Below are positions 1 to 61,800 of a DNA stretch of 64,000 nucleotides, piece after piece. Position 1 is the stretch's first letter. Each line of letters starts with the position of its first letter. The stretch comes from Branchiostoma floridae. Its lineage: Eukaryota > Chordata > Leptocardii > Amphioxiformes > Branchiostomatidae. The DNA is taken from NCBI RefSeq assembly GCF_000003815.2, contig NC_049983.1, positions 13,514,000-13,577,999 on the forward strand, given 5' to 3'. The notes under the pieces were generated by a model. The model searched no databases and was not told the origin of the DNA. It was given only the letters and a program-made list of their open reading frames with translations. Position numbers and translations under genes: made by a program.

Positions 1-3000
1 GCTGTACATGCACTTTGCAGTTACAGGTAGATATTGAATCAAGTGACGGGCGTACAGCATATTGAAATGAATGCAGTCAATATGCATTGCTAGTTACGGT
101 TCGAATGGCTATGGTGTGTTATAAAATACATGTAGAAAGAAACAAATCAACACATTTGCCCTTTATTGTGACAAAGTTATCCTATCAAACTTGAAAGAAA
201 ATGAATGGTTTCCTAGGAGGCCTGATTACGAACCCTTCCAAAAGTCCGTTCACTGGAAAATTGGACAGCAATGACCAAGGTCAAGACATAGCTCTCCATG
301 TGTGAGCAATATACTTGAGCTGCAGAGAGCAGATTGAGATTCGTGTGCAACTGCAAGGTTTCGACCAATCATGCCTGGAAAGAAGGGAGGCTGTAGCTGT
401 GTGCGGTGTGCTGTATGTATATTACAAGTCAGGTCAAAGATTTCAGGTTAACTAATAATCAAGAAGAAGTACAATGTATATCAGCATATTTAGCACCATC
501 AGACAATGACCAGTGTTTGCAATATAGATGACCTTGTAAACGTATAGCTTTGGGGAGACATAATACTAGCATTTCAGATGTAAATGAACAATATAATTTC
601 CACCATGTGCAATGGTTTCAGCATCATGGTTGGTACTATAACATGTAAGTACAACTCAGTATCCCTATTAAGAAATTCTAACTATCAGTACAAGGTGACA
701 AGCACTGCCCATTCCATCACAAATGTACATGCCAAAAGAGCATCCATGCTATATTCTTTTCAGCTGGGTGATCTGTGGATGGTTCAATTAACATAATGGT
801 AAAGAAAACTGCTGGGACATATGAAAATCCCTGAATGGACTTAGAATGTGCAGAAATAGACTTGTGATGGAGATTTGCATTTTGGGGTGCCCCTCTGCCC
901 CTCTTCTCAAGAGAATATCCTGCAGCTGAATCAATTCTCCTTCCTCCACTAATTAGAGGTCAAAGATCCTGTCAAGGTTGATTTCATAGTGCCTCCACCT
1001 GACTTGGTGAGTGTTCCACCAGGCATGATGTGACCTTCTTGACCTTCACTGGTGATTAGTGCGTAAGAATGACCTCTGCTCCCAGGAGGCAATGATGTGT
1101 TGCTAGGGTCACAACACTTCATCAGCCTTCAGGTGCAGGGCAATCTTAAAATAGACTCAAAGATTCAATGTATCTCATTAGGTGTTACATGCACTCTACC
1201 AGATACGCAGCATCCACTTTCTTTTCACCAACAGCCAAAGGCTATGCCACAAATTCTAAACTTTCTTGTGATTTCAAGTCCTACAGAATGTCAAGTAGTT
1301 AGGTAAGTTAAGCAAGTTATGGCTGGTTGGGCAACCTTGGAAAGTTGCACACCTCTGACACTTCTAACAAGCTTTTTCTACTATACCAATTCTTCCGCCG
1401 CCTGTACACCAAGAAAGGGCGGGGTCAACATGAATATTTCATAAAGCAGCATTTCTAACATCCTGCAGGCTTAGACCTCCCAGGTCAAACCAGCAGGGGT
1501 TCCAACAGTACCTGACGGTGAGCAGCTTACTGAAATGTTTTCTAAAAGCTTATCTAGGTTGCAAGGCTTATCATAAGATTAAATATGAGATCTTAACAAG
1601 ATTAAGAAACAGTTTAAGGATGAAAAAAGGATTTTGTGTAGTTGAAGCAAGGCTGATGTTACAAAGCAGATGTAAACAGGAAGATTTGACATAACACTAG
1701 AGTATTCCCCTACAGTTGCACCTTCAGCACCAAGGACAGCATCAATATGGCGATAATGGTTTTGGGCTAACGAACTAAGTATGTAATGTATAAGCAACTT
1801 AAACTCAAATCTTTTGCCTTCACAAAAACTTCACTATCACACAATATTTGTGAAGTCCTTGTGGGCATCTACATTGGAAATCAGGGTATCACAATAGTGT
1901 GGGGAGTTCCTTTGAGTTGATCTCACTCCTGATATGCAAATTTTGACCTTTGCTGAGCAGCAAGAAAGCAATTAACTAAAGCTCCAGGGGAAGGCAAATG
2001 ATCTACTGGCTCACTAGAGGGGAACAAATCTTCACTAGTGGTCATTACATTTGTCTGCCCAAGGGAAGAAACCTTGAGAAACATCATTAACTTTCTCCCT
2101 TTTCTTTTGACAAGCACAGAAGAAACTTTTCCTTCTTGTATGAAAGTCTAGTGTTCGACCAAACCATATGCAAATACAAAACAAAAGCAAAAACTTTGCA
2201 AAATCTTAAAATGTTGCATTCCATAAAGAAAATGGAAGCCTTGTGGCATTCACCATTAATGCAACTGTCATAAAAGTAATGTATTTGTCATGTTTTTTTT
2301 TCCACCAGTGACACTGAACAGACAGTTATGACATGTACAATGTGGCTTTCAAATGGCACAGCCACAAGGGATTTGACACAAGTCCAACCTTAGGCTTTGT
2401 GCACTTTGCTTTCGCTACAGTGAACATGGTCTTGTGCTTCACTTTGCCCATTTCTAACAATTTATTCCTCTGGCAACTGGCATAAGACATACCCGGCATA
2501 CCAAATCAGTTTGTTGCTTCTCAGATTCTTTCTGAAAAACCACAAGGTAAAAAAATTCTATGACAACCAGCCTAATCCTGGTTCTACTAAGTATACATTA
2601 GATCCAGAGATTCGTTGAAAATCATTTAAAAACAACATGTTTTATATGTACTTCTGTCATTCATAGGAAAAACCCAAACATTAAAGATAAAAACACTGCC
2701 AGACAAAATTGAATGCATCCATATAATCCTATCTGCATAATTAACCCAGTTCTTGGCAACATTTAAAAATCATCACCAAAACAAGTACAGTATTTGGAGA
2801 ATCAATACAATGTAGTACAGTACTTTAGCTTAGCAAGATAGATGCAGTAATTGCTGTGTTCTTTCCTGCAGGACAGCTTTATCCTACAAGAGGTCTCTTT
2901 TGGAATTAACATAATTCATGTCAGATTCAGCAACAGCATTTTAAATCACCAAATGAGTATTGTTTGAATCACCCATATTTTTAAAGTAAAACAACATTGT

Positions 3001-6000
3001 ATAATATATGAATTCAGGAACAGGTAGATATGGAATAACACCAGTGGCATCATTAGAAAGATTTTACTGCAATATGCCAACATCTACACAGGCATGAAAA
3101 GGCACTTAGTGACAGGCCAGACAAGCAGGAGATCGGAAAGGACGATGATGAAAAATAAACATTACAAAGAACTTAAGAGCCATATTTGAAAATATTTTAT
3201 CATGTACAATGTTAGTTGTATAGATAATTGATCTGCAGTACAGTCCCCTGCAGATTTCCCCGCCCCAATCTGTGGAGCATTTTATGTCCGGCTGCTTGAT
3301 ATGACTTACTGGAAAGATGTCAAAAGTCAGGTAGGAGTTATAGTCCCAGCCTCACATTTCATCAGCTGTGGTTTAGGTCAGCTTACTGGCAGCAGCTCCA
3401 GCCTCATTGCGCACCAAATCTCCCAACCAGACACCCAGCACTGTCCGCAAATTGCCTCTTAACCAGATTGATACAGCCAATGCGGGAGTCATTCCCAAGT
3501 CGCCGCACCGTGCACAACCTGATTACAACGTCCCTACCAAGTGGCAACACCCCATCAGTGGTGAATTCCTCAGCACTGATTGCTGTTTGATAAGATAATG
3601 TGTAGTCAGTATTGCTTAAGTGCCACACATTGGGCTAAAGAGCTTGACGCAAATTCTGTCCTCATCAATGAGATGCTGCCTCAGCTTCTTCTGAATAATG
3701 CTGGTCCCTGTACTGAACTGAAGGACAGATGGTAGCACCCAGGGTCTGTCATTAATGGAACTACAGGGGCTCGTTGACTAGTGTACAGCATATTACTATG
3801 CTGGATTCATATTTCTAAGACTTTAAAAGGTACACCTACACAGTAACTTCCAATTGATCAATACAATTTAAGTTGAAGGCTGCTGTTTGTTTCCATATGG
3901 TGGTCCTGAACAAAAAGCTCTTCATCTGATCCTTGCCATAATATGGTTTTTTAGCTACACTTCAAATGGGACAAATAATTCTATGCCAATCTGGAATTAC
4001 ACTGAGTCACAGACAAGCAATGTGCATTGGATTCAAGTGATTATTATCAGCACAAACCCATCATCCATCTATGGTCTTATTGTCTAATCATCAAAAGATC
4101 AAGGCAGTTGTTTAAGTATGTACTACAGTTTTCTTGTCAGGTCTCTTAAAATACTATCTAAAAGGAAGCAGAGAGAGTGCATTCTACTGGAATAGTGACT
4201 GATGAGTCCTTTTGAAACAGGCTGATGTATATGTTCCCTACAGGAACCAAATGAACTGCCAAAAGAGGATGTACAACATTTCTGATGAAACTCCGGAGTG
4301 TGAAGCTTTCTATCACACCACGTTGTTAATCTCAAGAGTGCACAATTTCCCGGCTCCTGGTAAAGCTGTGTACATCACCAGAGACATCAATGCCAGGCTA
4401 GCCATAATGAATTCCCAACGTTCCTGTGCCATCCATCAAACCTGACAGTAAATCAAGCACTACCGATTAAAGTGAAATTACAGACACCCCAACATGTCAC
4501 ATGTTACATACTCATTAATACACAGCAAAGATACATTTAGACATGTTTAATGCTGTAGAAGGGATCACAGACCTCTCCGAAGGAATTTTCTCAATCCCGA
4601 CATCAACGAAATAGCTTTCACCCTCCATTAACTCTGTTGGAAAGAGCTCTCAGGCAATCCCTTATCATTTGCTACTCCCATGTTGTACAGGGTGTCTTCC
4701 TGGAAAGAAATCTCAATGTAACCACACACCTTTAAGCACCAAGCTGTGAAAATAACCCCGTCTTAATTTGCAGATGCACTTAAAGGCACAAATCAATGTG
4801 ACAGGATTGGTGCAATCTATTGCAGTATTTATTGTGGTTGACAATTTAAAAACTATTAGTAGAGCCTTAACACCAGGTATTACTTTGCTTAATTATACAA
4901 TGGTGAAGGTGAAATATACATCAAAAACGTTGCAGTAATCTAATCCACGAGTCCCCTACTCTGCTACTTGCCAGGAATGGAAATTAGCTAACGCATAAAG
5001 GTTGAAGCAGGCATGAATTTAGAGGTTTGTGGCTGGAGTTTTCATCTCTCTACAATGATGCGATGTGTACTCATGTAATGACACCATAAGTAGAAATTGT
5101 ACATCAGAATATCAATGCAAATGAGCATCTACTTAGGAACCATGCCAGCAAATTGGTCTGTCAATACACATCAATCATGGAACAGGAAGCTTTCCAGCCC
5201 CCAGGCTCGCTGGCTACTTTGTTCTTATTGCTGCCTCTATATATACAGGCCTGTGTAAATAGCAGTTGAGTATAATATCAAATAGATATTTCGTTACAAT
5301 TCCCAAGGCAAGACTTCAGGAATGAACATTGTGTACAATGGACTTAATGGGATATTTTTTCATCTACCACCTGTTACTGTACCCATTAATTCCTGCCCTG
5401 GGAGCAAAACTGAAAAGGTAGATGGCTGTATTTAAATACAGCCAGTGTAGCAAATTTGTTAAATATATCGACTCATTGATTCTATCTAAGAAGTTGTTAA
5501 AATGAAACTAAAACAGCAGACTAAAAGCCATCCATAACATTCCTAATTAGTTACATGCTTAGCAAACGAAGTTTTAAAGTGCTATATGTATGTTTTCCCT
5601 GATAGGGAAAACATGTTGTTGCTTGTGTGTTATTTTTATTTTCATTTCTCATTCTCTTTATGGCAGGAACCAATCAGAGCTTAGAATTCCTGTAGACCAT
5701 TTAGAGCTTAGAGCTGCATCAGCATATTAGTAATGTTTAAATACGAACAATTTTAGGTTTACGATGGCAAAAACTACATTAATTTTTGCTTTCGTTATCT
5801 TATTCACACACAATACTATAGGGCAAGTCTAATGGTATTGTGCAATTATGTTAATGACCAGGTTCCAAAAACCAAGTAGATGACAAGTGGCTCTTTTTAC
5901 TTTATGATTCACACACATAAATTACTATAGTGCATAATAGGGCAAGCCTAATGGTATGGTATTGTGTGCAATTAGCTTGCCAAAAGGCTACAGGAAAACA

Positions 6001-17100: not shown

Positions 17101-18175
17101 ATAAAAAATATTTTCTATGTTCTGAAATCCTGTACATATACATGAATGTACATTATGTTCATGCATGTTTAGTATCTCCATTTTTCTAAACCTAGAATGC
17201 TGTAAGTACCTAATGTTGATTTAGGGTAACCGTTGTTCCTTTCAAAACTGTAAGATTTATAAGCGACTGTTTCACAATCCAAATGGTCAGAACCCATACC
17301 ATTTAGTTTCAAACTGCCCCATCATTTCAAGGGAATTCCACACAAATTGTACATTTTCATGGTTCAATGAGAAATTTCCATTGAAATAGGCATAAAGTGA
17401 GGTTCACGCTGACTTTCACATGATGTACCACCAAGTCACTCATAAAACATGCTCGTGTTCAAAGCCCTGAGCGTTTCACTCCCAACACAGGCTAATACAA
17501 GTAATAGGACTGTCAGAATGCTCTTCCTACATGTAAAGCACAAGACAGATAGCAATATCAGTATGAAGCTACCATATACACGTACAAGCATTCCGCCACC
17601 CCATTACGACCTGTGGGTGTGCACATTTGGGAACCAGTCTACATGAAATGCATGTTACAGCAGTTCTTGCTGAAGTTCTCAAACTTGGAAAAACTTATCC
17701 ACTCCCAGCATCTTTACCAATACCTTGGCCTGCTGGAGGTGATTTTTTAAGGAAGACAGATTTTAGGGATTTGGGGGTTCCTGGGCCACCATCAAGAATT
17801 CCCAGCGCATGGCAGAACTGCCTAATAGGGAAGACTGAGCTGGTGATCCTGACATGGAGGGTTAATGAAATGCAGAAATCAAGGCAGCCTTCAGCAAGCT
17901 GACCTGTGATGTGGGGGCCACACTCCATTCCATACAAACTATCAATCTGCAGGGAAATGCTATCGGCTGTGCAAGTAATATTGGGAAAAGTTTCCTTGGT
18001 AACAATTTGAAGACATGATACAGAATGCTATTAAGATATGTCAGAAAGTGTATGATTTCCAATTGATTTTTAAATTCGGGTCTTAAGACAAAAACGTGTA
18101 TGTCTTGTCCATGAAGGAAGGAAATGTTTGGTCTTGTATTAACCGTTAATACTTGTGTGACAAGAAAACTGACAC

Positions 18176-18201
18176 CAAGGAGGTTCCATATAACCTCCTT
18201 G
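18176..18201. mobile_element. 26-bp foldback insertion, locus A
   Basis: CAAGGAGGTT, a 6-nt loop CCATAT, then AACCTCCTTG: a perfect 10-bp stem. It is flanked directly by the 7-bp direct repeat CTGACAC (18169-18175 and 18202-18208). The same stem core with other 7-bp direct repeats occurs at 35704-35723 and 45621-45657. Insertion with target duplication is the simplest explanation. There is no coding capacity. Confidence 0.75.
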
Positions 18202-20651
18202 CTGACACTGACAAATGAGGGTGAAAGCAAGAAGATGCCTCCTGTAATGAGTGGTGACATTTGGTAGGTCATTCCTTGAGAGGTGATACAATAAATCTTT
18301 AAGGAATATTGAATATACCTGTTTGTTGTAGACTGAGTCTTCCTGACCAACAAAGGGGCTCATGGGTGCAACTAAGATGAACCTTAGCTGCATTGGTAAA
18401 TTTAACAATTCAATGCTCATTTTCCTATTCAACTCATGCAAAATATATTCATATAATTATTAGCTCAAAACATTTCACTGCAGTTATGTAGTGGACATCA
18501 AAGGTTGAAATGAAATATGGCACACTGCACTACATGCTGAAGTGTTACACCCTCATCTTACCGCAACAAAAAAACACTAATCTCTGGATTGGTACTGAGA
18601 AACCGTATACTGTTGCTATTAACACTTGTACTCCACAAAGAGTTATGGTCTAAAATATCAAAAGCTCTAGTAGGGACCTTTAGCAGAAATCAATATTTTC
18701 CACATTAATCATTGTAAAGCTATCACTACAAGAAGCATGTACAGCCTGATATTTACTTGTGATCCGCCTGCACACCTGCACAGGGCACATAAACTCTGAC
18801 GAGGATTTTCAATTTATAGCCTGTAAAAAGACCTTGAAAACTTTAACTTCAAGGTCTCTATACTGAGCTATAAACTTACACTTACATGGGATGCATTTCT
18901 ATTCTCAAGTTTATCTAAGGGGATAGCCAAGGTCACCATAGGTCATAGTCCATCTTTCCATGCAACATAAATCTTTTCCCATAAATGATAAAGGCTATAT
19001 GGCTCTAGTCTACCTTGCAGCACTGAAGGACAGGAATGCAGTATGATATATAATAACACTGAGAATTTGTCTGAACTCAGACCAATGTCCTTAGCTGAAG
19101 TGGAGAACCTAAGAAGTGGCACAGGGTGTTACAGATACGGCAGTTTGAAGATCGCCCTATTTGATTGAAAGATGCAAATAATTTGTTGTGTAATTAGTTT
19201 ATAATTGTTTTGATAATCCATTGTAATGACCTGTTCACAATTACACAAGCCACTCCCTGCAGATATAAGTTTGCAGTTTACATATTAAACAGAATAAATA
19301 AATTGTGGCTTGCTAACAGCTCTTCTCATAAATCATTCTCACAGAAAAACAAAGGCATAACAGATCACATGACAAGTCATGACAGCTATCACATGGCAGA
19401 GTCTATAATGAACTGACTAGGTGAAAGGCTGACGTGTCCCCTAACTATGAACACTACAGTTAGTAACACAATGTTTTCATGTCAGTAGGATTTTGCACAT
19501 TCTGGTCACGTAGATCAAGCAAAATACAATAGCCATCCTTTCAAGATGATAAAAGTAGAGCAGGACAAGCTCACAGTTCTGTCGATGCTGACTACCATGA
19601 TGTACCTTTACCATAGCTCAAACTTGCAATAAAAAAAAAATTAAGCTGCTCGACTGATAACGTTACATATTTGCTCCCACAGCAAAGGAAACAATATCAA
19701 AATTCCTAAATTCCAGAGTTACAACATCACACAACCAAAGAGTGCTACGTGAGCATTGTTGACCTAGAGACAAGGACAGTCCAGAGGGACATCTACATGT
19801 ATCATCACAACACTGGCATTGTCCACAGCCAAGGTCAATTACGTGTATGAATCACAGCAAGAAACGTGACTAGGGAGCAAAGGAAATTTCAGCAGAAGTG
19901 TCTTTCTCGAAGATTGTGTCATACTCTGAGACAAATTATTTATGTAGTATACAAGGAGAAACTAAGTATCTACATGGTAAAATGTGCAAGTACCTTCTAA
20001 TGATATCATTTGCTCATTCATCAATTACATAATCCATTCAGCCATATATCATTATAATATAGGCATTGTTTGTCACAAAATTTTAGATAAGAAACAGATC
20101 AATTTTTTTCATATTTTGTCTTAAAATTTTCTAATCATCTTTACTCTACAGAGGCCCAAGGTCATTTGTGCATCCTTACCCATATAATACATCTGTGTAA
20201 CATGATTAATACTAACTTTTTTGCTGGCATCGTCCCAAGGGGTTTGTGCCCTCTATCAGCAACACTTCATCATGATCCATCAACTTGGACATTGTACCTG
20301 CCATACATCCTGCACTAACACATCAACTCAACAGCCACATCATCCCTTACTGGTAGTATGAGGAGTGATAGACATCCAAGCTTTTAGACTTGAGTTTACC
20401 TTGACATTCTTCAATGGACTAGGCTATGACATGTAAGATTGCCCTTGCCATCATGTGAGTAGTTTTTTCCGACAGTTCCAGCTAAACTTTGGTCCAAAAT
20501 CTATACCCTAAAGCAAATTGTCACTCAGAAAGGAGGCTTTCACCCTCATGTTCACAACTTTTGAAAGCTGTACCAAGTTGGCAAGTTTTGATCAGTGGAG
20601 TCCATGTTTGAAGAATACACATCATGTATTTGCCTGCACCCAAATGGGACT

Positions 20652-32300: not shown

Positions 32301-33808
32301 AATTACGTTGCAACATAAAATCCTCTTGTTTGAGTTTGATGCTGTAACAAAGGTCAAGTTTTACAGTGGCAATTTTGTCTCAACAAATTGAAAAGTGCAG
32401 TTGAGCCGCACAATTCGAAAGAAATGCGGCTCAACCAAATTACAACAAACTAACAAACTTACTAGAATCCTAAGAATGGCAGTTGTTAGAAAAAAATTTA
32501 CCCACTTTCTTAATTTGATATTTCCTTTTATAATTGACAGAGTCAAGTGTGACAATGTCCCATTGACCTTTGATCCCTGTGGTGGCCATGTTTGCAATCT
32601 TGCAACATCACACCATAAACACTTCAGTTCTGCTCCATCAGCCTTCTCTCTACAATCAGAACATTCCTACCTTGTGATAACTACACTAGTCCTTAGCAGG
32701 ACAGCTCTCCTTGGCACAATATAGTCAGTGGGTGTTTCAAACTGACATATTCCTGTAGCCTGCTAGGTAATAACATCTCAAGAGATGGCATATTGACAGC
32801 TAATTGTTTATCCTAACATCCTGGAGGACCACAAACTCCTTATTACAAAACTCCTGCATGATGTATGAGCAATAACAGTTTTGCCCTGATACAGTATTCA
32901 CTTGGGTCACAGTTGGGTGGTTCAACCAGTTCAGAAATAAGAAACTCAGTATTGGATATCTGGTGTCCAATCTTCTAGATGGTGGGTGTGTCACAGCATC
33001 CTTTTGACACTTATTTACAGTCGTTGCCATACTTGGTACCATGTACAAATGTCGAGCAATAAAGTTCTACATATCTAATATTGATATCGTAATTTTTGTT
33101 ATTTTCCACATCATATTCATAGCTGGATAAAAAAAGGCCTCCAAATTGTGGGTGGGCCAAATGCCCTCCCTGTTTCAGATCTGCTGGTCCAAAGTCCAGG
33201 AGAGGGGGTATGGGGAGGTCAGAGCACTGAGCTTGGGACACAGATTACCAGTACAGTTCTCTTGGGGAACCATGACAATAAAGATTTCATTTCATTTGAG
33301 GATTCATATTGTGCACTTAGTTGTTGACTGCATGAAAGTCACTGTACTTTTTGTTGTCGTGTCAATAAATCTTCTGTGTGTGCTTCTGCCTTCAAGTGAT
33401 GCAGAACTGATGATCAACAGCTACATGTTAATTTGACATCTCAGTTTGGTGTCCCAAAGCTCCTACAACCCCAAAGCTCCTACAACCTCAGGTCCACCTG
33501 GACATCCTCATTGCCCTATGATACTGAAATGATGGGTTCAATCAACCTCCATCAGCTGCCATCTTGGACATCAGAATGACCACTCTTCAAATAAATAAAA
33601 ATTGGCTCTTTCTTAGATAGGTGCTGAGGGGACTACAGAATGAAGCGTAAATCATCTGAATACGATATTGAATCTTTTGTGTGACAGAAACAGATGGTCA
33701 ATGTGAAAATCACACACCACTTTCACCTTGATCTTATCAGACCCTAGGTGTGAAGTGTGCACCCCTTAGGCAGAATTTACACCTGCTGTGTACGTCTCAA
33801 GTACATAC
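29371..33808. other. Non-coding stretch, ERC intron next to coding exon
   Basis: No exon with recognisable coding was seen. It contains a hairpin at 32400-32435 and a small tandem duplication at about 33453-33487 (CCAAAGCTCCTACAACC twice). The intron starts at 33808 on the minus strand with GTATGTAC. Confidence 0.5.
32400..32435. repeat. Perfect 11-bp hairpin, 14-nt loop
   Basis: GTTGAGCCGCA (32400-32410) and TGCGGCTCAAC (32425-32435). It is flanked by loosely similar CAACAAATT / CAACCAAATT words but not by a perfect target duplication. Origin unknown. Confidence 0.65.
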
Positions 33809-34465
33809 CTGGTTCTCCTCGGACGTGACCCTGAGTTGCTCCTTGAGAAGTGCAAGTCTGCTGGCCTCCTCCTTCCGGATGGCTCGCTCCTTCTTCAGCT
33901 CTGGGCTCCAGAACGTCTTGATCGAGTTCATGGAAGACTGCAGCTTCCCCTCCTTGATCTCTATCTCCTTCCTTAAGGCTGAGTTCTCCCGCTGCATTTC
34001 CTTGGTCTGGGATTGCAGATCGACCATCACATTGTCCCGGACCTGCCTCAGCTCATGGCTGTGCGGCAGCTGTGAAGCCATGTTCGCGGTCACCGTGTCT
34101 GCACTGGAGCTGGCGGGGAGGTTGGGACTGGACCCGCGGGCTGGGAGAGGGGAGCCCCCGAAGGAGCCTGACCGGGAGTGCCCGGAAGCGGCAGGACTAC
34201 GTAGCGGAGACGAGCGGCCTGATCGTGGAACGTGAGTCGGACTGCTGATAGGATCTATGTACGAGGACATACCTGTGTTGTAGACAGCGTTCAGGGACTG
34301 GATGTTCTCCATCGACATGCTGGATGCTGAGTTCTTTCTACCGAGGGAGGGGGAGCGGTGCTGGGCCTGGGGCCGGGGCGCAGTGTGGGAATTACCTGGC
34401 CGCGACTGGTGCCCCGAACTGCCGGGACTCCGGCCGTCGGGAGATGACCTGCTCTGCGTGTACAT
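33809..34465 (-). CDS. ERC1: ELKS/ERC (CAST) active-zone scaffold, first coding exon
   Basis: This exon encodes the N-terminal 219 residues of an ELKS/Rab6-interacting/CAST family protein, a coiled-coil scaffold of the presynaptic cytomatrix that also acts in cortical microtubule capture and vesicle docking. Family hallmarks visible here are SMENIQSLNAVY at about residue 51, a Ser/Pro/Gly-rich low-complexity N-terminus, SSPNLPASSSADT near residue 112, then SSMNSIKTFWSPELKKERA beginning the coiled-coil part, and RKEEASRL. It starts at the ATG complementary to 34463-34465: MY at the start matches the vertebrate ERC start. A clean acceptor (TGTCTCCTTCAG) lies at 34520, so bases 34466-34519 would be 5' UTR in the same exon, although that stretch is also open in frame. 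The exon ends with GAGAACCAG followed by donor GTATGTAC at 33808. No later exon is visible in the 33.8 kb to the left, so the gene is partial. Vertebrate ERC1 and ERC2 come from one ancestral gene; the symbol is nominal. Confidence 0.93.
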
Positions 34466-35703
34466 CGTGGTCCGATCAAGCTGGAGGTATTCCCGCGCCG
34501 GGCATGGCAGTCCGTTAGGCTGAAGGAGACAAGATACCGGAGAATTTCCCTAACCAAACCACCATTGTTCGACTGCGATTGCGGTCCTCAAAATGGCCTT
34601 TCGTTGAAGCTGGGCGAAACCATTCGGTCAGGGAGAGTGGCATTTGTTTACATTCTTACAAAAGCAACATACTAAGCAAATAATACAAGTGGTCTTCACC
34701 CTGATATTACAAAAATCTATTTCAAACGATATAATTAATAAAGCTACCATTATATCTTTATAGAAATGAACAGCGGTGACTAAATTTGGGATTCAAAAAT
34801 GATACGGCCCCTACAGTATATGCATTCTCTGCATGTGTAATTGATTTGCGGAAGCCAGTTTTCTACTTCCGGCCCCGTTCTCGATCTATGATCTCTGACT
34901 CTCTGAGCAACAAACGAAATCGCAGCACAGCCCTGAAGCATACATCCTGGGCGAGTATTATCCCTGTGAATTGAATAGAAAAGAAAGTTTCAAAAACCTT
35001 TTGCTCATCCTTAGTCCTTAGACATGCTATCAAATGTTACACTCGTTAATTATTTGCGACAAAGTATTTGCATCCTTGACCTCATCCCAGAAGGCAGAAG
35101 CTCGCTGCTGTCACTGACTGAAGACAATCGATATTTTCCAGGGGCAAAACGGGTGAATTTTTGCGCTTCCTTCTTCCCTTGCTGGAAAAGATAGATGGGT
35201 TTTGAGTGATTTCTTTTTTCCTGCGCGCTCTATTGTTGCTGATTGTTGCTTGAGTGCACTTCTCATTTTTCATTTCAATGCGGGAATGTTATTCAGCGAA
35301 GTCCAGTGTTGTTAAACGGCAAGCAAGGAAATGAATTGCCATCATTGGAAATCACGTCAGGATGGTAATTCCCGCCAAAACTGAGTAAAGAAAGGGAACT
35401 GTTACATCATTTTACCGGTTAGTAATTCAAAGACAAGACCGTTGAGAAGTGAAATCCGGAAGCGTCGCCTGTTTGGATGAATCACGCGAAGGTGCACCGA
35501 TAGAGTTGCCTACGGCATTGTGGGAATGTTTGGCGGTAAATTTTGGTTTGTGACGGCTTTTGCTACAAATTCCAATAAATACATCATTGCATTAAGCGCT
35601 TGCGTTATCCACATTCAATATAAATTATTACGCACCGTACATTTTCCAAGGACACTTCGGAACTAAAAGCCGCTAAAGGGAAAGTTTGGTATATTTGTCG
35701 GAG

Positions 35704-35723
35704 CAAGGAGGTTATCCTCCTTG
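35704..35723. mobile_element. 20-bp foldback insertion, locus C
   Basis: CAAGGAGG, TTAT, CCTCCTTG: an 8-bp perfect stem with a 4-nt loop. It is flanked directly by the 7-bp direct repeat GTCGGAG (35697-35703 and 35724-35730). It is the shortest of three loci in this window sharing the CAAGGAGG/CCTCCTTG ends. Confidence 0.7.
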
Positions 35724-36262
35724 GTCGGAGGAAAACGGGCTGCGTTTGAATCGAAAGGATACTAATACATGTATGACAAGACATGACTGGAATCATGATT
35801 TCTCGACCTTTTTAAATTCGTTTTAGCCGATTCGTAACTAGCATCCATCAAGTGGAAGTAGTAGCTTCGCTACCCACTAGAAGACTTTCAACTTGAGCCT
35901 AGCTATTATAGTGACTGTTAAAGCTGAGCCAAGTTATCCTAGTAGCGCTTACTCCTCAAATTGACGAAAGCTTGCATTCAAACAGTTGCGATTTTCTTAC
36001 TGGCAACATGTAAGGTCAGTGAAGTTTGTGTTCTGTGTTCCATCAGATCTGGACGCGCGCCCGTTCCTCTTTTAAGCTATCTGTATCTGTATCTATATAG
36101 CCGGTATAACCGCCGTTCGGCGTAACACACCAAGCTGAACTACGGATTCAATAGTAAGTCATCCTCCTAACGCCCGGTCCCCAACGGCACTACCTTATGG
36201 GGCCCTGCTGTCCCAGGCCCTACCTACGGGTATTATGATTGTCGCCACAAACAAGCTGTCAA

Positions 36263-43400: not shown

Positions 43401-46400
43401 TAAACATACACAGTAATAGTATTAAAAAGGCTTAACATAAGTTTTAACAGTTTTTTCACAGTATCAAAGCAACACAAGGATATGGAGTCTCATAACTTTT
43501 TGTGTAATTTACTGTACATATCATTGAAAAAAAAATGAAAATGTCAACTTATGAATTGACTTACCTTTTTTGATACACATATATTGATAAATGTATACTA
43601 GGATGTTCACTTTTTAACCCATGGTACCATTATACTATTTTTGTCTATGGCTATAAGGGACCGTACGGCATTTAGCGAGGGGGGAGGGCCGGTCGCCAGG
43701 GGGGGGAGGGCCAAGCAAAAAAATATTTTGCCAGGGGGAGGGCCTAGCAATTTTTTTTTTACTTGGGGGGAGGGCCAAGCAAAAAAAAATATCTTGGTCT
43801 GCCAGCAAAATATGTCCCTTAAAATCCAAGAAACGGCGTTTCAGAGGGTCAAGATTTCAAAATTTTTCTGGACCTCTGCAAGGGATCGCCCGAGGTTGGC
43901 GCTCGGGATACAGTGAAAATGCGAAAGGGAGGGGGCGGGGCTTATGCATGACGCCCTCGAAAACCTTCTTCACGTACAGAAATGTTATTAAACTCTAGAT
44001 TAGTCTGCCAGCAAAATTTACCCCTGTCTTATTGCCCACAAAATGTAAGAAATGGCGTTTCAGAGCTCGAGGGTAAATATTTGCAAATTTCTCTGGATCC
44101 CTTTTGACGTGACCGGCCTCGCGCCTTTGATGACCGACATCGTGATAATGTGTTTGGGGGGATTTAATTTTGTATTTCTAAATTGAAATGCTATTAAAGT
44201 TAGCTTTGTTTGTCAGCAAAATATCTCCTCAAACTGAAGGAAATAGCTTTTAAGAGGGTCAAGATTTCAAAATTCTCCCGGACCTACCTTGCGATTCTTC
44301 GTGCCTTTGGCGCCGAACATGGTGTTCGGAACGTCGTTCTCAAAAACTTGAAACCCTCGTATTTTTTTTTATAAAAATGTCATCTAACCAGCAAATTTTC
44401 CCATAAAAAAGCAATGCAGGAAATCGTGGCCCAAAAAGCGTGGCATTTCTAAAAGACCTCCTGCTAATCTGCGGTCTCACGCCCGCCGGCGGCTAGAGAG
44501 AGGCGACCGGTCTTACCCCGCCGTGGGAATCAGCGTCACGCGTCGGCGCCCCCCTCCCCACTACAGTTTTGGAAGTCTAATCGTGCTGTCGTTTTGGTTT
44601 TCATTTTTTTCCCCGATTTACCGTAAGTTATTACCACCACAGAACCAAGAAAAAGTCCAAAATATGTAAATTGAAAATAGTTTCCGTCAAGCCGCTCAGG
44701 CCCGCGAGCTTGCAATACGTAAATTTAGGGAGCGGGGCGCGCGCCGCTTCGTGGCGCAAATCTACTAGAAATCCAGGTACAAATGCTTTTAGGTGTTGTT
44801 TTAATATCAAAACAATGAAATAGCTTCTATAAAGCAAATATTTATGCCTCTATGAAGGAGATATTTATCCCTCTATTAAGCAGATATTTTGAGCCATTCT
44901 GTTTTCCTTTTTTTACTAGGGGTGAGAGATCTGCTTCTCGATGAAAATCATAAAAAAAGTATGACGCAAAGCACATTTCCAAATGCGGGAGCGCAGTGTT
45001 TTATCGGCGTCTTGAATATTTTTTTTCAAAGTTGATAGGAGGGGGGAGGGCCAAGCAAAAATATTTTGTCTTGGGGGGAGGGCCTAGCAAAAAAAAATTT
45101 ACCTGGGGGGAGGGCCATGCAAAAATTTTTTGACCCGACCCTCTGGCGACCGGCCCTCCCCCCTCACTAAACGCCGTACGGTCCCTAACACACTCACCTT
45201 GAGGCTGTTAAGGTACCCACTGCTATGTACCATCAGCAGGTCTTCCTCAGTGGCCTCTACAGGAGTCACTACATCATCATCCTTCAGTAAGCCGCTCTCT
45301 GCAATAATACCAATGTGTATTATAATATAGCAATAATTTCATTTGCTTAAAGACCTTGTCTAGCTTGGTCAAATAAATGATGATGTAATGCTTAACTTAA
45401 ATGAAATTCTCCATTGCCATATCTGTGCATGGTTCATTTACAGTTACACCTTTAAATACTTTTTGATGTGCACTTCTTGATAATTCTTGAATCCAAATGG
45501 TGGTCTGGTCACTGTTAGTCCATTGGGCCAGAGGATAGGTTGGTACTGCCCAGGACCCAGGTCGTGCCGATATGTAATTTGGGATCCTGACCCAAGGACT
45601 ATTAGTTTGTTTACTATCATCAAGGAGGTTGAAAAAGAATTTTTTTCAACCTCCTTGCTATCATAATACAGTGTTGAATTACCTTTCAGATACCTGAAGA
45701 CTTTACCCCATTTACCAGAGTCGAAGGGATGCAGCTTTTCCAAACCCAGGAAACCAATATTGTAGTCAGAGCTGTAGACGATGGGCCACTTGGACTGGGG
45801 GATATCTTCATGTAGTCTGGTACTGTGGGAAAAGTGGTCAGACAGTTAAGCAGCTTTAGAAGATATATTTGAACATGTTTGATATTGTCATTATGCCATA
45901 TACAAATGTACAATATAATCTTAATGCTGATTATAAAGAAAATAAACAAGACCATAGCATGTCTATAAGACAAAAGGTCCAAAAACTGGAAATTCTTCTG
46001 CAGTACCAAGGTCACATGCCAGGAGGGCCAAACTTGACCTTGACTTTCATCTTTCCAACTCCTACTCATATACCAAATGTCATTACAATCCATCCAGAGA
46101 TTCTAATGTTATGCTAACCAGAAATATCTGTAAAGACAAACACATACACAGGCAGACAGGCACACAAACAGACAGACACACTAAAAACAACATTTTTCAT
46201 GGAGGAAATAAAGTCACCAAATTATGAATCAAACTAAAACAAACAAACTGACAAAGATACAGTTGGATCTGTCAATATTCAGATACAGATCTACAAATCA
46301 CCAGGCCATTAGGTGATTGTTTTTTTCTCTGTTGCCATCAAAGTTCAAAGTCTAGTGTATGGATGATGTTTTAACATTTTTCGCTTCTGTTTTCTGAGGA

Positions 46401-58831: not shown

Positions 58832-61800
58832 TTAGTCATTAAGCTGACAGAGGCCAGCCACGCCGCGGATGATCCAGTGGTCCTGTGGTTGGTCGGTTGG
58901 CAACTGGATACTCAGCACGTAGTTTGTGGAGTGGCCAGTCGTTGAGAGGACCCCACGCCGCGCACTTGTCTTATACACTGTGGATGGAACATTTAACGCA
59001 ATTATCATTTGGTCACAACTTTCTGACATTCCTTTTTTGTATTCAACATCAAACACTGTTACACCAAGAGAGGTTGCTTGGAGTTTCATTCTTTACAAAT
59101 GTTTACAGATTTACATAGGTCTTGAAAGTACTTTACATGCAGCTGGCAAGTTTAATGACAAAAAAAAAGAAGAAATCTTTACCTGGACACTCATAGGTTG
59201 CCTTTTCTGTGATCTCAGATATCTTTCCTGGTTTGAGCCATATGACTGGCAGGGTGTCGTAAAGGATTTTGGGTAGAGACTCTGCGAGAAGTCCTTTCTG
59301 TCGGTCCCAACGTGCGCCCTCAAGGAACAGGCCCCTCACATAGACTCCATCAGTCTGACGAAAATAAAAATGGCTTTTTCAATTTACATTCAGCATTAGT
59401 TCATACTCAAATATATGTAACTGTATCAACTCATCCTAATTCTGACAGATTGGTCTTACTATTAGATTGATTATCTTCATACTGATAATTCCTGAGGATA
59501 CATGTATTTTGGAATGGTCTTAGATGATCTTAGATGAAGCAAACACTTCTATTTATCAATATGAACAGTGTCACAGTTCAATCCGTCCAATGATGTTAGC
59601 AAAACTTTGATTTTTGGGGGGTTTGGTGGGTGAAACTTTACATCAAGGTAAAATGATGATATTGCTTAATAAGTGTAGACCCTACCGGTTTGCCTGGCAT
59701 CTTCTTCTCCTCCTTCTGTACAAAGAACTCAAAGGCCAGGTGGTCAATGGGGATCTTGTACTTCCTGGCATAGTTCTGGATGGCCCCAGTCATGAAGGAG
59801 TGGGTGAAGTAGAACCCTGATAACCAGAACACATGGGGAGGACCGCCATCTATCCACACCTGGAAGAACTGCAGCCTTGCTATCAGGTCAGCAATGTAGC
59901 TGCCCAGTGGCTTGAGAGAAGGGTAGGACTTGGCAGCCCACATTGCTGGGATCTGAAATAAAGAGAGAAGAAACATTACAAATACTGAGGGAATCGCCAA
60001 ATGTTTTAAAGTCACATCTTCAGGATTCTTTATTTTCTGTCCCTGATATACCTGGTGCTCTGAATTGAAAGTCGGATTTTAAGGGAGGATTGCAGCAGAT
60101 GGCATGAGAATACCCTCTCTAACACATGTACAACCATCCTGGGAATATCCACACTCCTGATGCTTCATTAAAATAATGCTGTATATCACTGAAAGGTGTG
60201 TTTTACCTTTCCCACCATCATGCTGTCAAACACATCCTCCAGTTCTGACGACATGACCACCAGCCCGTTGGTGGCCTTGCGGATGTCCTGCAGACTGGTG
60301 CGGATCACCGTGATGAGGCGGTTGAACCGGATCAGCTCCTGAACCAGGACAGTGTTCATGGACTCCTCATAACGGACTGGGTACTTGGTCTGAAATGAAA
60401 ATGATGAGGATGGTAACTTAGGTGAAGGGAAACAAGGATACATGTTCTAACAGAAAAAAGTCAAAATTCTAATGATTCAATTTAGAAGACATTTATCACT
60501 TGATTAGTAAAGATTTTCTTTTAGTTCTATTGTTAATATGGATGGCCTAGTGTGAATTGACAGGTGCAAGTAGTGCTTGCTTGTGAGCTAGCTAAGCCAT
60601 GAATCACCTGCACTTGCTCCAAGTTGAAGTTAGGAGGGATCTTGGAGAGGATATCCGAGGCCAGCTCCAGGATGAGGTCCTCTGCAGACTTGCCTCCCCC
60701 TGCTGCCTGTCGAGGCTGGGTCAGCAGGATCCCGTCCAGCAGCTGCTGCGTCTCCTGCTGCTCCTTGGAGATGTCTGCATTCTCGTGGAGACCGAACACC
60801 TCAGGGTGTGGTGTCCATGGCAACGCTCGCACATACTCCACAAAGGAGTCGTAGCTACCTTGCTGAGGTGCGTAGTACAGGCCACTGGGGGATAACTTGT
60901 ACTCATCATCCTGGGTGATCTGTGGGCAGTAGAAGATGGCCAGTATGCTGGTGAGCAGGCGACGGTCACGCTCGTCAGTCACCCGACCCCCGTAGTTGCA
61001 TTCTCCGGTCAGATACGTCAGGGCATCTAGTGGAACCTTGTCGTAGTCGTTGAGGAACATTTGGAGTTGCTTGACGCTGATCCTGAGGTCGGACTCGTTG
61101 AACTCGTATGGAATGTTCCATCCCAGGGGACCAAAGTTACGCCGCTCCTGGACTAGTGCGTGGAAGAAGCACAGACCAAACAGCAGCTTCTGCCAATGCT
61201 GCAATAAATACATACAATATACGTCAGCTATACACATGTGCATCAAAATGAACTTACACTCTATATCACTCTTTGTCTTTTTACAAGTTGTTGTGAGGCA
61301 GATCTGCCTGTATTATAAACATTTCGACAGGAACACTGAGTTATTAACATTCGGACTGTCCTAATGAAGTAACACCACATCTGTGTACCTTAGGTTTATT
61401 GCATCCATTGAAGAAGTCTGGGTCACTGATAGGATCATTCAGGTAGGACCTGAGCAGGTTTGCCTTCAGACCCTTGGGTGGTTCATTGGTCATCTTCACA
61501 CCATTCTGCAGGGCTGAGACAGGGAAGGCTGGGGAGGGGTAGGACGTCAGCCACAGCCGGAACTCTGGCTTTGTCTTCTCAGGATCTGTGATTACCTATC
61601 AGAAAGAAAGAAAGATATCTTTACATACCTGATACTGCCATAGGGACCCTCAGCTTTTCATTGAATTTGGTTAGAAATTGATACAATGTGAAGTTTGCTA
61701 CATGTCATTTGACCAGAACTTTGATGATGTAAAATGAAGTTTGATGATGCTGTATCCACTCAGTGCTATGTGGNNNNNNNNNNNNNNNNNNNNNNNNNNN

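Follow-up and report, generated by a model that had tools for sequence, protein, structure and literature searches.

Cutting by P-type transposases is known in detail from Drosophila, where the P transposase makes the second-strand cut at a distance of 17 bp into the inverted repeat and thereby creates 3' tails of 17 nt (PMC7776569). The repair product listed in Table 1 of PMC2895639 consists of the target duplication, up to 17 nt of each element end joined by microhomology or by a short insertion, and the second copy of the duplication. Within the P superfamily, target duplications of 7–8 bp have been described (PMC4168063).

The genome analysed here appears to carry thousands of P-element-like excision scars. 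They take the form of short hairpins, each of which very probably marks the germline excision of a cut-and-paste transposon of the P superfamily. Like the Drosophila P footprints, they show a duplication, a limited number of nucleotides from both repeats, microhomology or inserted bases, and the duplication again; they differ by a duplication of 7 bp instead of 8 bp and by 18–21 nt instead of the 17-nt tails (PMC2895639). The Drosophila footprints were moreover obtained experimentally at one locus in a repair mutant (PMC2895639), whereas those presented here are spread across a genome assembly. Target duplications of 7 bp are shared with Galileo, a member of the P superfamily in Drosophila, whose repeats, however, are long and variable with GTATTAC as preferred target, while the repeats found here are perfect over 31 and 38 bp; the word 'footprint' does not occur in the main text of the Galileo paper (PMC4168063). 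In zebrafish, the P-type transposase THAP9 excises its own 1.1-kb element Pdre, which is close in size to the 1.16-kb elements presented below, but with larger flanking deletions (PMC10983969), and Pdre has 8-bp duplications and 13-bp inverted repeats (PMC7776569). Excision products of DNA transposons, with filler, were also recovered from assembled rice genomes; in contrast to the present scars, these 94 putative excisions came from a comparison of two genomes, displayed mostly flanking deletion or filler and were not due to P elements (PMC4423477). No genome-wide report of P scars was found among the literature matches listed, a search in which most subscription papers and Repbase were outside the scope. 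Full-text searches with the scar end CAAGGAGG (among the matches listed) and with CAAGGAGGTT plus 'transpos' gave nothing relevant by title or abstract. P excision scars and their mechanism are of a known kind, and the interest lies in the scale and in the family-specific cut depth. The differences from known P scars are the 7-bp duplication (known in Galileo), the kept length specific to each family, a THAP domain undetected so far, a second gene in both parent elements and the number of scars.

The following sequence of events would account for the hairpins. A longer element would insert and duplicate 7 bp of its target, as observed for the intact elements. The transposase would later excise it by a staggered cut about 18–21 nt inside each end, which would leave single-stranded tails of terminal inverted repeat (TIR) on both donor ends, as suggested by how far the scars reach into known ends. 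End joining would then fuse the tails, trimmed or not, with an overlap of 0 to 2 bases or a little filler between them, and the expected product is an imperfect palindrome of 20–40 bp with a copy of the target duplication on either side. The duplications and the elements with the same ends were observed in the assembly, and so were the composition and the boundaries of the scars. We infer the strand polarity of the cut and the repair pathway, and likewise the immobility of the hairpins, which are not thought to move themselves.

The window, i.e. the whole 64-kb stretch of DNA that was analysed, is located on contig C5. The first-pass annotation had reported three sites with CAAGGAGG...CCTCCTTG ends, each flanked by a perfect 7-bp repeat of its own, and the window sequence bears this out for all three, positions included (Table 1). 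The pattern CAAGGAGGN{4,30}CCTCCTTG matched three times in the window. A direct repeat of at least 6 bp adjoins only 3 of the 468 short inverted repeats in the window (arm of 8 or more, loop up to 60), and these are exactly the three sites. On the plus strand of the window CAAGGAGG is confined to them, while its complement CCTCCTTG has one extra copy at 33949. A looser scan of the window for CAAGG..CCTTG with an exact 7-bp repeat recovered the same three sites and detected neither a one-sided scar with an exact repeat nor a longer element with such ends; five block-shuffled controls contained no two-sided case and 2 one-sided ones. The left 20 nt of scar 3, CAAGGAGGTTGAAAAAGAAT, are the end of a longer relative at C4:10733098-10733163 (reverse strand), in which CAAGGAGGTTGAAAAAGAAT is directly followed by AGGAGTCGG. 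Scar 3 stops right before this internal AGGAGTCGG, and its remaining 17 nt come from an opposing end. The first 19 nt of this end type occur at 31 places; none of the 20 examined continues into AGGAGTCGG, so that no intact parent was found for site 3.

Table 1. Positions of the putative scars and their target duplications in the window, and of the two long elements with related ends elsewhere in the genome.
Feature	Position	Basis
7-bp target duplication CTGACAC, left copy, site 1	18169..18175	sequence
Putative scar 1, 26 bp, CAAGGAGGTTCCATATAACCTCCTTG, two truncated transposon ends joined	18176..18201	pattern + repeat analysis
7-bp target duplication CTGACAC, right copy, site 1	18202..18208	sequence
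7-bp target duplication GTCGGAG, left copy, site 2	35697..35703	sequence
Putative scar 2, 20 bp, CAAGGAGGTTATCCTCCTTG	35704..35723	pattern + repeat analysis
7-bp target duplication GTCGGAG, right copy, site 2	35724..35730	sequence
7-bp target duplication CTATCAT, left copy, site 3	45614..45620	sequence
Putative scar 3, 37 bp	45621..45657	pattern + repeat analysis
7-bp target duplication CTATCAT, right copy, site 3	45658..45664	sequence
Element A, 8442 bp, 31-bp perfect TIR CAAGGAGCTTTTATCAGGAGGAGAGAGCAAG (starts CAAGGAGCTT), duplication CTCTAAC	C19:10308832-10317273	
Element B, 8684 bp, 38-bp perfect TIR CAAGGAGGTTGAATAAGGGAAAGGAGTCGGCTCATAAT (starts CAAGGAGGTT), duplication AAGTCAT	C11:17071456-17080139	

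The genome-wide search proposed in the first-pass annotation was done on 513 Mb and yielded 2018 sites, versus 5 for a reversed-pattern control. Flanking 7-bp repeats were analysed at 48 sites, namely the three of the window and 45 of the 50 genome matches listed; as this listing follows the contig order, the sample represents contig C1 plus the window and is not random. The five other listed sites are one in L006, where two scars are nested and no repeat is present at the inner boundaries, and four outside the flank analysis. An exact 7-bp repeat was found at 30 of the 48 sites and a repeat with one mismatch at 11 (at most one mismatch, 41/48). Left and right flanks taken from different sites (2256 pairs) agreed exactly in 2 cases and with one mismatch in 21, so that the excess of 7-bp repeats anticipated earlier is great genome-wide. 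Both copies of the duplication are therefore retained as in P excision footprints, and repeats that are specific to each site, compared with the cross-site control, indicate transposition products with a 7-bp target duplication. Against this stand seven of the 48 sites, which display 2, 3, 4 and 6 mismatches in 2, 2, 2 and 1 cases; at the one with 6 mismatches, a repeat is exact over 8 bp. At the 48 sites, the counts of exact repeats of 5, 6, 8, 9, 10 and 11 bp were 0, 0, 1, 0, 0 and 0. The perfect stems of 8 bp or more could also be taken for functional hairpins (RNA structures or protein-binding palindromes) or for chance inverted repeats. With no match to the pattern in 100 dinucleotide shuffles of the window, the count of 2018 against 5 in the genome and a duplication of its own target at every site, such an origin is already contradicted and its probability is negligible.

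The three window bodies and the 50 listed ones were compared. Their first 8–10 nt are common and are followed by several different end sequences, with unequal cut depth on the two sides. As in P excision footprints, the bodies combine truncated tips from the two inverted repeats, which meet at a microhomology or enclose a short filler. Among the 53, 47 are distinct and five bodies recur.

The P-type RNase H domain PF21787, used in a profile search of the genome, gave three matches, two of them long. Both long matches sit within elements of 8.4–8.7 kb (A and B, Table 1) which have these termini and exact 7-bp duplications. The longer elements with the same termini that had been suggested as worth looking for were thus found, as were the 1.16-kb elements described below, and the earlier view that the hairpins derive from transposons is upheld, since they are built from the ends of longer elements in the genome. 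The frames of A and B matched PF21787 with E-values of 7.3e-22 and 5.8e-21, which assigns them to the TNP-like RNase H transposases, and other pieces of both elements matched PF21789 (E 3e-8 and 3.3e-7). Between A and B, the transposase frames share 47% identity across 577 aa. Ends of P-superfamily elements are known to begin with CA. The repeats of A and B start in the same way and are accompanied by duplications of 7 bp, a length within the range of this superfamily. The transposase at work, left as unknown in the first-pass annotation, is consequently most likely of the P superfamily, on the basis of PF21787 and PF21789 in elements with the same termini. No Pfam match to THAP or to a GTP-binding domain was obtained in the nine A and B frames scanned, which may not cover all 5' exons. 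The transposase frame of B gave no sequence match in the PDB. Both results count against P excision scars. PF12017 matched neither this genome nor any of 14 control genomes, so its absence is uninformative. The third, shorter PF21787 match (L062) has no perfect CAAGGAGG within 3.2 kb around it. P transposase copies were counted via PF21787 alone.

The 20-nt end CAAGGAGGTTAAAGAAAGAG occurs 103 times in the genome (60 forward, 43 reverse). Twenty of these loci were examined; they correspond to 19 sites, one palindromic site being present on both strands, and three of them overlap the 48 sites above. Intact elements of 1157–1167 bp, 97.3–99.7% identical and with exact 7-bp duplications, are present at four of the 19 sites. 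Their ends read CAAGGAGGTTAAAGAAAGAG followed by AGGAGAGCG, and CAAGGAGGTTAAAGAATCAC followed by AGGAGAGAG, and about 268 bp are about 70% identical to a subterminal part of B. At 11 of the 19 sites a two-sided scar with duplication was found (10 exact, one with one mismatch). L077 and L079 carry the left end and 0–4 nt of the other end before the second duplication copy, while at L070 and L071 this second copy is not clear. Comparison of 12 loci (11 sites) with the intact element showed that 20–21 nt are kept on the left and 10–20 nt on the right, with a remainder of 0 or an overlap of 1. Two scars have 21 nt in common with the parent, and the last base fits the other side too. One scar, a 39-mer present at four of the 19 sites with four different duplications, equals 20 + 20 nt of the parental ends with one-base overlap. 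Three further scars of this family, among the 41–46 bp matches listed, keep 22–23 nt on one or both sides. Four sites are thus intact and 15 carry a scar or a broken end (n=19), a ratio which is no estimate for the genome as the sample was selected for a fully kept left end.

If the scars derive from P elements, family A (ends CAAGGAGCTT) must have left scars of its own. The pattern CAAGGAGCTTN{2,30}AAGCTCCTTG indeed yielded 561 sites, with none in the control. Among ten sites examined, the 7-bp duplication was exact at eight and had one mismatch at two, and no exact repeat of 5, 6, 8 or 9 bp was found. Taken together, the duplication counts cover 58 of 2579 pattern sites (2018 + 561) in one genome assembly, and both totals come from exact patterns which shorter, one-sided and mutated scars escape. 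The 50 family A bodies listed comprise 34 distinct ones, while 16 repeat another, one 31-mer accounting for eight. They keep 10–19 nt of the 31-nt TIR, mostly 14–17, and the three cases with 19 nt can be read as 18 nt plus one base of the other side. The middle left unexplained by the two ends measures -2 to 8 nt in 48 of the 50 and 12 and 18 nt in two.

These bodies bear on the earlier proposal of a mobile family of ultra-short hairpins, 20–40 bp long and moved in trans by a transposase. It would account for the 7-bp target duplications and for the few bodies found unchanged at more than one site (the 39-mer at four, the family A 31-mer in eight of the 50 listed bodies), and the recurrence, with five repeated bodies among 53 and 16 of 50 in family A, does count against excision scars. 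A mobile family should however share its body, while 47 of 53 bodies differ and 34 of 50 are distinct in family A; those which repeat are what would be expected if complete or almost complete tails were joined at a base common to both. Longer parents ending in the same sequences are present, and Drosophila P elements require 138 and 216 bp at their ends (PMC1562414). Bodies that differ, that consist of truncated parental ends and that stop at a fixed depth are what is expected of excision scars, and the mobile-hairpin proposal is given up as very improbable. The alternative offered along with it, residual ends left after internal loss, came close: the scars are truncated ends, to be read as the outcome of excision. 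Could the excising element belong to another superfamily that came by the termini of P elements through chance or capture? No autonomous copy was traced for most end types, elements with a transposase numbered just two, and THAP was not found in the frames scanned. The divergent A and B nevertheless both have these termini and 7-bp duplications, family A scars match element A over up to 18–19 nt, and the 1.16-kb elements share their 268 bp with B, which makes this origin extremely improbable. Excision by hAT elements was considered as well and dropped; hAT excision goes with 8-bp duplications and small footprints. Foldback elements with long arms were also considered and dropped.

In family A and in the 1.16-kb family, the boundaries (18 and 20 nt, respectively) immediately precede an internal AGGAG. 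From these two boundaries, 21 nt were predicted for B before the search was made. Seven B-type scar sites were found (control 0), of which two keep 21 nt and one keeps 20 nt, and none keeps more. In the three families compared, the usual maximum is therefore 18 (A), 20 (1.16-kb family) and 21 nt (B), rarely 22–23 nt, values which depart from the 17 nt of Drosophila P and in this respect speak against a P excision footprint. Kept length reflects the cut position indirectly, AGGAG is found twice in A (at 16 and 19), which offers two possible anchors there, and the comparison covers no more than three families.

The 53 bodies measure 20–39 bp, except two of 43 and 46 bp. Genome-wide, 1896 sites have 20–40 bp (the control of 5 applies to the total of 2018), 122 have 41–46 bp (control 2) and 117 have 47–76 bp (control 7), corresponding to about 90, 20 and 4 sites per bp of length; nested and compound scars account for some of the longer bodies. 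Aborted gap repair, in which faulty copying loses the element and the tips remain, is known to produce internal deletions in P elements. Such deletion could explain the 122 and 117 longer sites, which retain more, as well as L005, L012 and L013, where flank and end are repeated as in interrupted templated synthesis. A broad range of kept lengths would then be predicted, yet the density drops steeply beyond 40 bp, and each of the three families has its own usual maximum, so this deletion is a very improbable source of the hairpins.

Excision scars thus remain the preferred reading. A short palindrome with a target duplication may be taken for a new tiny mobile element; here such palindromes were traced to probable parents. 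The scars allow cut depth and repair outcome to be read from the assembly alone and for several families together, and they may also serve to count excisions. We further propose, tentatively and at somewhat less than even chances, that the roughly 2,500 pattern sites form a readable archive of P-type excisions in which the family-specific cut depth (18/20/21 nt) would arise from a transposase that takes its measure from an internal AGGAG-containing site and not over a constant 17 nt from the end. If true, germline double-strand-break repair would be naturally recorded in this archive, which would also show how often such elements leave without restoration from the sister copy.

Several minor observations were made on unusual scars. 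The compound scars L005:1501-1563, L012:1501-1560 and L013:1501-1555 carry the target duplication and the initial scar bases twice in a row ahead of the second end, an arrangement that resembles templated repair cut short. L010:1501-1554 is a 54-bp palindrome with these ends, flanked by CTAGGGA, and exceeds the usual 40-bp limit. Among the 41–46 bp matches listed, one 46-bp compound body occurs at eight places (for example C1:6076960, C1:9022849, C2:11755708 and C3:19643398) and a one-base variant at three; judging from its recurrence, this scar is probably carried and multiplied inside another repeat.

Both A and B contain a second gene in the orientation opposite to the transposase (L065:1474-1845 (+) and 2438-3490 (+) in one element, L064:3089-3436 (-) and 1427-2512 (-) in the other). 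It consists of a short exon with a C2H2-like finger, below the Pfam cut-offs, and a frame of 350–360 aa, which is 54% identical between A and B and has no Pfam match. In the genome, 22 matches to the second gene were obtained, with six long stop-free frames (C11, C1, C3, C7, C19 and C17). Contig C6 (mainly 14.97-15.01 Mb and 27.0-27.9 Mb) holds 15 of the 22, most with internal stops, and the third PF21787 match is located on the same contig, where decayed P-type copies are thus clustered.

The window has three scars in its 64 kb, where about 0.25 would correspond to the genome mean, a contrast which is no test of clustering as the window was picked for its scars. It also contains two long open frames resembling coding exons, 33797-34549 (-) and 60533-61312 (-), the latter of which we take, judging by eye, to be dynein heavy chain-like.
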